From assembly GCA_900315455.1 (NCBI GenBank), contig OMZE01000048.1, forward strand, positions 1 through 41,452: DNA of 41,452 nucleotides, in the 5' to 3' direction. Source of the stretch: an uncultured Prevotellaceae bacterium (GTDB lineage: Bacteria; Bacteroidota; Bacteroidia; Bacteroidales; Bacteroidaceae). Positions 5,129 to 13,080 of this stretch are shown in pieces. The translations under genes and the position numbers were made by a program. Under the pieces are notes generated by a model. It made no database searches and was not told where the DNA came from. It saw nothing but the letters and a program-made list of their open reading frames with translations. How positions within the stretch are numbered: position 1 is the stretch's first letter; every line of letters begins with the position of its first letter.

Positions 5129-5171
5129 TCAGCCTACGGCTGATTGAAAATTGAAAATTGAAAATTAATAT
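5129..5171 (+). repeat. REP-like hairpin with ATTGAAAATTG tail (copy 1)
   Basis: A perfect palindrome TCAGCC-TAC-GGCTGA (5129-5143) is followed by three units of ATTGAAA/TTGAAAA. It starts 3 bp after the stop codon of the upstream GH43 gene. The same hairpin-plus-tail sequence occurs twice in opposite orientation at 5248-5308. Confidence 0.75.
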
Positions 5172-5174
5172 GCG

Positions 5175-5201
5175 AGAAGCCCGGGATTGACCCGGGCTTC
5201 T
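5175..5201. terminator. Hairpin between convergent glycosidase genes
   Basis: AGAAGCCCGGG (5175-5185), loop ATTGA, then CCCGGGCTTCT (5191-5201) make a perfect 11-bp GC-rich stem. The U-tract is poor on both strands, so it is a probable but not ideal bidirectional terminator. It sits between the two inverted sets of REP-like repeats. Confidence 0.65.
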
Positions 5202-5247
5202 TGCATGATGTATGATTCATTCGGCTTGCACGACATTCGAGCGAATC

Positions 5248-5324
5248 TTAATTTTCAATTTTCAATCAGCCGAAGGCTGGAACCAATTTTCAATCAGCCA
5301 CAGGCTGGGATCAATTTTCAATAG
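5248..5324 (-). repeat. REP-like hairpins with ATTGAAAATTG tails (copies 2 and 3)
   Basis: On the minus strand this reads CAGCC-TGT-GGCTG plus ATTGAAAATTGG, then CAGCC-TTC-GGCTG plus ATTGAAAATTGAAAATTAA. A further ATTGAAAATTGA at 5311-5322 supplies the last codons (I-E-N) and the TGA stop of the GH3 gene. The whole set is an inverted counterpart of the repeat at 5129-5171. Confidence 0.75.
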
Positions 5325-11867: not shown

Positions 11868-13031
11868 TCATTTACAGATTTCCAAAGCCATGAGATTCAT
11901 CTGTTTGCATTGTTCGGCAGTGACTTTCCTCTTTTCATTATGATGCTCAAAAGGAGAAAGCATCAATAGTACGCCTTTGCCACAGGCATAGAATTGTTCG
12001 CCATGGGGTTTCGAAAAAGGAGTGAACCCATTCTCCATGATGACGATGGTGGGCAGGCCTTCATCGAAAGCGGCCCGCATCACCTGTTTCTCACCGGGCG
12101 AAATGGCGGGAGATACCAGCACGGCCCCTCTTCTGGCTGCTTCAAGATAGTAGACGACCGCTTTCTTTATTTCGGCATCGCTCATCCGACGTGACACGCG
12201 CACGGCGAGGCGCCAAGGCGCGGAAAGTAAGTCAAGGTTGCCTATGGCACTGAATTGATAAGAACCGATGTGCAGGCCGAAAGTAGGGAGCAGCCATTTT
12301 GGTCGGGCGCGCTTCATCAATAAGCGGCGAGGGTTGTCGCGCAGATAGTTCTCCCAAATGGCCAGTTCATCATAGGAGCGGAGAATGAGGTCATTATAGC
12401 CTTTTGCAAAGAGCGAGCGTGAGAGGCTGCCAATGCTTAGCGACGGCACAACCGTCGCCTGCAGAGAACCAGCCTGCTCCTGGGCCTGCTGATCACCCGC
12501 CTGCTCTTTGGCCTGCTGGGCATCCGCCTGTTCTTTGGTCATCAAAGAAGGGGCGAGGGGCGGCTCTTCCTTGCGTTGGCTTTTCTCCGTAGGTTGCGAC
12601 TGTGTCGCAACATCCGTTTTCCAGCCACCCATCTCCCTCAGTGCTTTTCGGCATCCTGTCTTAAACCCCGAGATGACATGCCCTAAATGCACCGGCAATG
12701 ACGTTTTCACAAAAAGAATGCCATGCAAATGGTCGGGCATCATTTGCAAGGCACGTATCTCTATCTGTGGAAAGAAATGGGGAATGGCTAACCATTCGTT
12801 CTTAACGGCTTTTCCGAGTTCCGATAGCACTATGCGGGGCTCGTCCTTGCTGCCTTTCTCAGCAAAGGCATCACCCTCTAAATGCCCGAAGACGGGCAGT
12901 CGCCCTTCCACCTCAAGCGTAATCATATACATCCGTCGTTCTTTATAGTCGTGATAGTCATCACGGCGTTTCATCGAGACAACCTTCTCGCCGGCGTTCT
13001 TTTTCTTCGCTTCAAGTTGTTCTTCGGTCAT
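11868..13031 (-). CDS. RAYT-like HUH (Y1) transposase with a DprA/SLOG-like C-terminal domain
   Basis: This 387-residue protein has an N-terminal Y1-transposase fold: YMITLEVEGRLPVFG, then the HUH motif in MMPDHLHGILFV (H101, H103). A charged, low-complexity linker (about 140-200) contains 9-residue repeats of the type AGDQQAQEQ. The fold resumes at FAKGYNDLILRSYDELAIWENYLRDNP, where Y229 in the Y-L-R-x-NP helix is the candidate catalytic tyrosine, as in REP-associated transposases. The last 120 residues (RRGAVLVSPAISPGEK, GLPTIVIMENGFTPFSKP, GKGVLLML) resemble the nucleotide-binding half of DprA/SLOG Rossmann domains. ATG 13031 is chosen over a TTG at 13049, which lies in the trmD terminator. 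No IS ends were seen around it, so it looks domesticated or single-copy, as RAYTs usually are. The RAYT call is firm; the SLOG call is by pattern only. Confidence 0.8.
   Translation of the reverse strand: MTEEQLEAKKKNAGEKVVSMKRRDDYHDYKERRMYMITLEVEGRLPVFGHLEGDAFAEKGSKDEPRIVLSELGKAVKNEWLAIPHFFPQIEIRALQMMPDHLHGILFVKTSLPVHLGHVISGFKTGCRKALREMGGWKTDVATQSQPTEKSQRKEEPPLAPSLMTKEQADAQQAKEQAGDQQAQEQAGSLQATVVPSLSIGSLSRSLFAKGYNDLILRSYDELAIWENYLRDNPRRLLMKRARPKWLLPTFGLHIGSYQFSAIGNLDLLSAPWRLAVRVSRRMSDAEIKKAVVYYLEAARRGAVLVSPAISPGEKQVMRAAFDEGLPTIVIMENGFTPFSKPHGEQFYACGKGVLLMLSPFEHHNEKRKVTAEQCKQMNLMALEICK
12473..12540. repeat. 27-bp tandem repeat inside the RAYT-like gene
   Basis: Two full units (12473-12499, 12500-12526) and a partial third share the core CCTGCTCTTTGGCCTGCTG with a few changes. 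They encode the Q/E/A-rich 9-residue repeats of the linker between the two halves of the HUH domain. In-frame copy-number change would only alter linker length. Confidence 0.8.
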
Positions 13032-13046
13032 CGGTACAGCAATATC

Positions 13047-13080
13047 CAAAAAGGGAACCTTTGTGCACCACAGAGGTTCC
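13047..13080 (-). terminator. Intrinsic terminator of trmD
   Basis: Arms at 13054-13065 and 13069-13080 (minus strand GGAACCTCTGTG, loop GTG, CACAAAGGTTCC) form a 12-bp stem with one wobble pair, followed by CCTTTTTGG on the minus strand. The stem begins in the trmD stop codon, and the T-run is 16 bp before the ATG of the RAYT-like gene. Confidence 0.8.

Follow-up and report, generated by a model that had tools for sequence, protein, structure and literature searches.

How REPs are moved, and which host factors help in this, is a question raised by the gene at positions 11868..13031 (- strand) of the window, the whole stretch of 41,452 nucleotides from an uncultured Prevotellaceae bacterium that was analysed here. 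The original prediction, made from the sequence, was that this gene joins a RAYT-like HUH transposase to a DprA-type domain. A natural fusion of this kind suggests what type of partner a REP transposase may need, namely a DprA-like ssDNA binder, and it puts the partner question on one polypeptide, whose DprA-like part might keep hold of the cleaved strand, bring two subunits together or attract RecA. Is the protein such a fusion, and on which DNA might it act?

No paper describing a RAYT-DprA fusion was found in the open-licence papers searched, and within these the fusion appears undescribed. The words DprA, Rossmann and Prevotella are absent from the main text of PMC6006769 (Quentin 2018), as are Prevotella and Porphyromonas from the main text of the work of Di Nocera 2013 (PMC3733652) on tagged REPs.

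Domain layout and HUH domain

The gene encodes 387 aa, from an ATG at 13031 to a stop codon at 11868-11870. An upstream TTG at 13049 would lengthen the protein by 6 aa, but in several homologues the start is an ATG equivalent to that at 13031. The full-length AlphaFold model, built with 84 sequences, has a mean pLDDT of 85.4 and displays two confident domains and a low-confidence linker. The first half of the Y1 HUH domain covers residues 26-134 (beta1 to alphaC; 12630..12956, - strand) and is confident from about residue 31, while the second half, with beta4 and the tyrosine helix, covers residues 207-247 (12291..12413, - strand). Between alphaC and beta4 lies the linker, residues ~140-199 (12435..12614, - strand), which is probably disordered, 10-residue means of pLDDT being 38-53 over residues 141 to 200. 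The DprA-like Rossmann domain follows at residues 249-387 (11871..12287, - strand). When the full-length model was compared with the PDB, both DprA and Y1 transposases were retrieved, the latter including ISDra2, IS608 and the E. coli RAYT (2xm3, 2vjv, 4er8); in 4er8 the RAYT is bound to a REP hairpin.

The HUH motif and Y-L-R-x-NP helix that had been read in the N-terminal part were borne out, as DHLH at residues 100-103 (12723..12734, - strand) and YLRDNP at residues 229-234, both conserved in 84 rows. In this alignment (A6) P99, D100, H101, H103, N233, R236, G264, N265 and E314 are invariant, and Y229, P234 and R281 are conserved in at least 90% of the rows. Y229 (12345..12347, - strand) is the predicted catalytic tyrosine of the Y-x-x-x-N-P motif. 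The tryptophan of the W[QE] motif before the tyrosine helix is replaced by a phenylalanine, F208, in at least 90% of the 84 rows and is retained in L017 and L022.

Family profiles recognise the window protein poorly: Pfam gave no match to it alone, and the NCBIfam RAYT model (NF047646) matched it weakly, at 20.1 bits (E 0.00046) against a cut-off of 80. Among 27 aligned members, Pfam Y1_Tnp matched 14 (E up to 1) and NCBIfam REP_Tyr_transpos 26 (E up to 1, irrespective of the curated cut-off). The protein departs from subclass 2.4 by having DH.H, not NH.H, and an insertion after alphaC, and from the IS200/IS605 TnpA proteins of subclass 1.1, which have Y-x-x-x-Q and are short, by its Y-x-x-x-N-P and its 387 aa. 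It contains a class-2 Y1 HUH domain with the predicted catalytic residues intact, and activity of this domain on ssDNA is very likely. That the window protein combines a RAYT-type HUH domain with a DprA-like domain is virtually certain.

The C-terminal domain

The SPAISPGEK motif, part of the pattern from which a DprA-type Rossmann fold had been proposed, starts at residue 307, and structure prediction agreed with the proposal. For the C-terminal domain alone (24 sequences), AlphaFold gave a mean pLDDT of 95.6 and a pTM of 0.90. The Foldseek search of this model against the PDB placed DprA (H. pylori, S. pneumoniae, R. palustris) or ShosA at ranks 1-14, with a best E of 8.1e-5 and TM by query of 0.63-0.69, whereas rank 15 reached only E 0.04. 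The nearest solved relatives of this Rossmann-like fold are thus DprA proteins. On sequence alone, a profile of 24 fused C domains reached DprA at E 0.24. Once stand-alone and canonical DprAs were added, S. pneumoniae DprA was matched at E 4e-16 and H. pylori DprA at 2.6e-10; since three canonical DprAs are part of the bridged profile, these values show an alignment to be feasible and do not amount to finding DprA independently. Its predicted structure makes the C terminus a shortened Rossmann domain of the DprA type.

As far as the accessible text of PMC4489622 goes, H. pylori DprA contacts ssDNA through R52, K137 and R143. The equivalent of R52, a GSR-type arginine with the role given there, is R281 of the window protein, conserved in at least 90% of the rows. 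At the R143 position, within the RN motif, the eight fused rows of alignment A7 all have M or L, where each of the 12 rows of stand-alone or canonical proteins has R; the mapping to R143 is inferred from chain numbering, and K137 cannot be placed with confidence. Judged by the aligned residues, one of three known ssDNA contacts of DprA thus appears lost in the fused domain. This domain ends at the RN-equivalent helix, where most stand-alone relatives add another strand and helix. A SAM or DML1-like flanking domain is absent from the fusion, which ends at that helix and has the Y1 domain N-terminal to the C domain. The earlier suggestion of a DprA-type fold is supported, and the binding of ssDNA or a nucleotide is a prediction qualified by the one ssDNA contact that appears to be replaced. 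We consider ssDNA binding by the DprA-like part evenly poised, and contact with RecA doubtful.

Selection was compared between the three parts of the gene. Between the window gene and its ortholog L038, dN/dS was 0.080 in the Y1 domain, 0.347 in the linker and 0.069 in the DprA domain. Pairs of 78-98.5% identity (n = 87) were used, and in the 25 listed of these 87 dN/dS ranged from 0.04-0.29 in Y1 and 0.02-0.30 in DprA to 0.18-0.92 in the linker. The linker thus has a higher dN/dS than the two domains, each of which shows a low value.

Distribution, origin and neighbourhood

The window's genome holds six loci of the fusion family, as well as an unfused RAYT (L258) and a stand-alone mini-DprA (L180). 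One of the six is split over two frames (L003; G000:C74:116444-117509) and is possibly a pseudogene or an assembly error. The protein was matched in 27 of 60 relatives, its own genome included; 20 of these are within the genus, and of the seven matching genomes elsewhere in the order six match in the Y1 part only. Within the genus, 168 of 299 genomes, or 58 of the 130 good ones, carry between 1 and 11 matches of the C-terminal domain, at least one of which is a stand-alone protein (G453); the genus matches listed include at least ten frames of less than 300 aa. In the order the domain was found in 15 of 295 genomes, which are the window's own, eleven with a fused form and three with a stand-alone form (G455, G539, G586), and in a sample of the phylum in five of 395, which are the window's own, two with a stand-alone form and two with frames (378 and 675 aa) that have no Y1 match. 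Among named genomes 433 relatives were found. The best 80 of these 433 bear titles that name Prevotella, Prevotellaceae, Bacteroidaceae, Bacteroidales or Xylanibacter brevis ATCC 19188, except L097 ('uncultured bacterium'), and many titles among these 80 name ruminant stomachs. Carriage on plasmids (72,556 records) or phages (50,697 records) found no support, there being no match at E 1e-5, and none of the 22 pattern matches in viral contigs is a relative.

RAYTs in general were found in 99 of 149 genomes of the order, most frames among the matches listed being ~160-230 aa. It could be supposed from this that homologues lack the additional domain as a rule, and most RAYT-family frames listed for other Bacteroidales are indeed too short for it, yet in the Y1 tree all 36 fused rows fall on one side of a branch with an SH-aLRT of 98. 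This tree holds 73 rows, 36 fused (35 different) and 37 not fused, and was made with a quick method without bootstrap. The grouping is consistent with one fusion origin. As a side observation, RAYT-family matches in other Bacteroidales also occur in frames of ~1,020-1,270 aa (G456:C26:25988-26362, 1269 aa; L271, L269, L272), apparently another, much larger Y1-domain fusion.

A survey of the genome neighbourhoods of homologues, which the original prediction had called for, revealed no conserved partner gene among 79 loci (within L038-L117). The commonest neighbours are a two-gene pair upstream, each gene in eight of these 79 loci, which we take to be type I restriction modification and specificity genes. 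Stand-alone mini-DprAs of ~150-160 aa are found in Bacteroidales (L119, L120, L173-L184), with longer frames in L174, L181, L183 and L185. The mini-DprA of L119 sits ~570 bp from a RAYT-like frame. A mini-DprA beside a RAYT was considered as a two-gene forerunner of the fusion and rejected, L119 being the one case and the other stand-alone loci having none within flanks of ~1.5 kb.

Hairpins within the linker

Two REP-like hairpins are located in the linker of the window gene. The first, antisense to the gene (12583..12611, + strand), consists of the tag TTCTCCGTAG (12583-12592) and the hairpin GTTGCGAC-TGT-GTCGCAAC (12593-12611), with a GTAG foot. The second, in sense orientation (12440..12468, - strand), consists of the tag TTCTCTGCAG (12459-12468) and the hairpin GCGACGGT-TGT-GCCGTCGC (12440-12458), with one G-T pair and a GCAG foot.

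Hairpins of this form, with an 8-bp stem, a 3-nt loop and at most one G-T pair, were counted in 91 linkers from 99 distinct gene sequences, eight sequences (L003, L008, L024, L027, L050, L089, L092, L110) being left out as incomplete pieces or for want of a border motif. We observed 92 such hairpins in 65 of the 91 linkers, whereas codon shuffling, over 100 rounds, averaged 1.42 and never gave more than 6; the rest of the same genes (85,539 nt) holds seven. The other 26 linkers lack such a hairpin, and several of them hold a tagged one with 7/8 pairs. The linker of L064 (Xylanibacter brevis ATCC 19188) also has a tagged hairpin with 7/8 pairs. The motif G[TC]A[GT] stands directly at one foot in 75 of the 92 hairpins and at both feet in none, with a background of 4.4% of linker positions; among the 92, the foot is GCAG in 31, GTAG in 24, GTAT in 18 and GCAT in 2. 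The longer tag TT[CT]TCnG[CT]A[GT] precedes 47 of the 92.

The same association was seen when the search was anchored on the tag. Of 109 tag sites in the 99 genes, 64 precede a stem with at least 7/8 pairs at the exact register, and 63 of these 64 are in the linker; at none of ten other registers does any of the 109 do so. The invariant columns of the tag-anchored alignment (A8) are a product of the tag pattern used for picking, while the foot counts are free of that choice. Over 91 distinct tag-anchored linker sites, pairing occurs in 83.9% of cells (73.6% in shuffles) and changes on both sides of the stem in 103 cells, a figure that none of 500 shuffles reached (42.9 in shuffles). The covariation score of these sites is 0.388 against 0.216 in shuffles, none of 500 being as high, and slid registers all scored lower. 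As the stems covary, the hairpins are maintained or renewed. In genes with both orientations, the antisense tagged hairpin comes first in 18 of 18; the sense/antisense tallies of tagged hairpins and of footed hairpins cover different sites.

Further or divergent loci were also inspected, and of 20 parsed only L195, inside the window's subclade, and L024, which is AT-rich, have a hairpin. The linker hairpins thus mark the subclade of the window gene and are nearly absent outside it. In L083 (6954-8423) five tagged hairpins lie inside the linker with 84-nt spacing, as if the in-gene REP had been expanded in tandem. REPs inside a gene as such have a precedent in the accessible part of PMC6006769; new here are REP-like hairpins within the linker of a fusion gene.

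Related hairpins elsewhere in the genomes

In the window's genome GYTGCGRCNNNGYCGCARC is present at 11 sites, GTTGCKNYNNNRNMGCAAC at 23 and the longer tagged form, with 3 mismatches allowed, at 15, while reversed-pattern controls gave 0; the three pattern sets overlap and include hairpins in the window gene and in the C40, C74 and C89 paralogues. The C89 frame has a further one at its 5' end, ahead of the homologous start. Paralogues differ in the tag, which is AAGCCGTYMAGTAT-like at C89, CTGTCCCGTAT at C74 and TTCTCCGTAG in the window gene. Outside the genes of the family, seven tagged hairpins were found in 1.12 Mb of the window and flanks (control 1). The strict tagged pattern occurs in four of 60 genomes, all four of which have the C-terminal domain, itself held by 21 of the 60. 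In the complete genome G801, with nine domain matches, one footed perfect hairpin lies within the copies, and a 400-kb sample contains one hairpin with a GTAG foot and one with a GTAA foot. These small numbers of tagged or footed hairpins do not support a high-copy REP population. Set against the in-gene hairpins, the few dispersed copies indicate that REPs of this form are few and that the gene of the enzyme itself is a favoured site.

Hairpins flanking the gene were also considered as ends of a mobile element and set aside: within 600 bp there are 75, some loci being counted twice, versus 19 in plain shuffles, and no common position or sequence is apparent. A 12-bp hairpin with one G-T pair and a 3-nt loop (13054-13080) lies between the fusion start and the upstream gene, presumably trmD-like; it could be a terminator or regulatory hairpin.

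The original prediction had drawn attention to REP-like hairpins nearby. The CAGCCNNNGGCTG hairpins do exist, at 5130, 5267 and 5295 (window 5130-5307), among ATTTTCAAT repeats between two convergent genes, and three sites compare with 0.02 expected by chance. However, they lie ~6.5 kb from the gene and are probably not cognate, better candidates being found inside the gene. With a 5-bp core stem of other sequence, they have neither stem nor foot in common with the in-gene hairpins and were rejected as substrate. A longer form of the CAGCCNNNGGCTG pattern was found in 0 of 272 loci, few of which are from the window's genome. These hairpins are a different short repeat family.

Proposed function and alternative explanations

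According to the accessible text of PMC8266576, TnpA_REP of E. coli and Stenotrophomonas acts on footed ssDNA hairpins in vitro and cuts at CT, the Stenotrophomonas REP being GTAG followed by an 8-bp palindrome with a 3-nt loop. The in-gene hairpins described here have that same geometry, and CT is present in the long tag, while the C89-type tag has no fixed CT. By analogy, the chemistry of cleavage and strand transfer may be as in TnpA_REP, and the tagged hairpins are moderately probable as its substrate. If they are, each gene would record the specificity of its own enzyme, and dozens of natural enzyme-substrate pairs would be at hand.

We propose that the protein is a RAYT-like ssDNA strand transferase whose DprA-like domain holds ssDNA or dimerises the enzyme and whose linker hairpins were seeded by its own activity, a proposal with about an even prospect of being right. 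The HUH domain would recognise a footed hairpin in single-stranded form, for instance where the lagging strand exposes it, and would cut next to it via Tyr229, after which the strands would be rejoined as by TnpA_REP of E. coli and Stenotrophomonas in vitro. The DprA-like domain would dimerise the enzyme and keep hold of ssDNA, either released or target, thereby preventing loss of the cut strand; the held ssDNA might also be a landing site for RecA. The enzyme may have seeded hairpins into its own flexible linker, a tolerant region where in-frame copies could persist.

A bolder version, which we consider unlikely, is that the strand transferase is addressed to itself, cutting and rejoining its own single-stranded gene at the linker hairpins and so changing the linker length or copying the gene. 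The inverted pair of tagged hairpins, which encodes part of the flexible linker, and the own ORF as favoured REP site would then be part of the system. The gene would be exposed as single strand during replication, transformation or conjugation, and copying would proceed via an ssDNA intermediate held by the DprA-like domain and passed to RecA.

Other explanations give the C-terminal domain or the hairpins a different meaning. The domain might be of the ligand-sensing SLOG type, recognising a nucleotide or nucleotide signal and acting as an on/off switch of the HUH enzyme. A shortened domain that has lost the RN-motif arginine would suit such a sensor, and there are weak fold matches (E ~0.5) to 1t35 (rank 41) and 1weh (rank 45), presumably LOG-like proteins; but DprA or ShosA fill Foldseek ranks 1-14 with a fall to E 0.04 at rank 15, and the GSR-type arginine R281 is kept in at least 90% of the rows, so that we regard a sensor as improbable. 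The protein might also be a domesticated host factor that handles ssDNA during transformation, conjugation or the repair of replication forks; the REP hairpins would then be relics unconnected with its current function. Low dN/dS in both domains, few dispersed REPs, wide presence in the genus (168/299) and the lack of a match in plasmid and phage records at E 1e-5 are all compatible with this. Yet the presence is patchy, at 1-11 matches per genome, unlike that of a housekeeping gene, and the covarying stems speak of hairpins that are maintained or renewed, which leaves a domesticated factor with a low probability.

Finally, an ordinary RAYT with an incidental C-terminal extension could carry linker hairpins by REP insertion, as in subclass 2.4. 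RAYT-like frames too short for the domain do prevail among the order matches listed, and the accessible text of PMC6006769 gives the precedent of in-frame REPs between HuH and Y. The extension is however a whole conserved domain with dN/dS like that of the catalytic domain, its carriers make up a single deep group in the Y1 tree, and the linker lies between alphaC and beta4, not between beta3 and alphaC as in subclass 2.4 in that text. We judge this explanation very improbable and retain the strand transferase with an ssDNA-holding or dimerising domain as the preferred reading.

Comparison with known systems

The C-terminal domain shares with DprA/Smf the Rossmann fold and the GSR-type arginine, and differs in having no SAM/DML1-like domain, in the loss of the RN arginine, in a missing last strand and in being joined to an HUH enzyme. 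Its likeness to the DprA-like antitoxin ShosA is known here from the fold match alone (8zva). The nearest non-fused relatives found are the stand-alone mini-DprAs of Bacteroidales (L119, L120, L173, L180), which have the GN..LL start, a similar length and, in several, the SR motif; they retain the RN motif and most of them also the C-terminal strand, but have no HUH domain.

On the Y1 side, the accessible part of PMC6006769 offers two near cases. Subclass 2.4 of TnpA_Y1 likewise has in-frame REPs within its gene, in the stretch from HuH to Y, with NH.H, an insertion between beta3 and alphaC, 194 in the length column and no C-terminal domain named. Subclass 2.6, from the same phylum (Bacteroidetes), likewise has its insertion between alphaC and beta4, but of 21 residues; it has NH.H and a length entry of 179, and its flanking structures are atypical in that they lack GT[AG]G. 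The C-terminal domains given there for subclass 2.1 are of DnaA_C or HTH type.

With the class 2 Y1 enzymes TnpA_REP/RAYT (4er8, Stenotrophomonas TnpA_Sm), the fusion has the HUH and Y-x3-NP core in common, 4er8 being matched by the full-length model. The in-gene hairpins may also correspond to the REPs of these enzymes, which have a GT[AG]G foot: GTAG stands at the foot of 24 of the 92 and GCAG, GTAT or GCAT at that of others, and few copies are dispersed. The 8-bp stem and 3-nt loop are the same as in the Stenotrophomonas REP, as given in the accessible text of PMC8266576. Compared with these enzymes, the fusion scores below the NCBIfam cut-off and has F for the conserved W, a linker of ~60 residues, a C-terminal DprA-like domain and REPs that are scarce across the genome and frequent within the gene.
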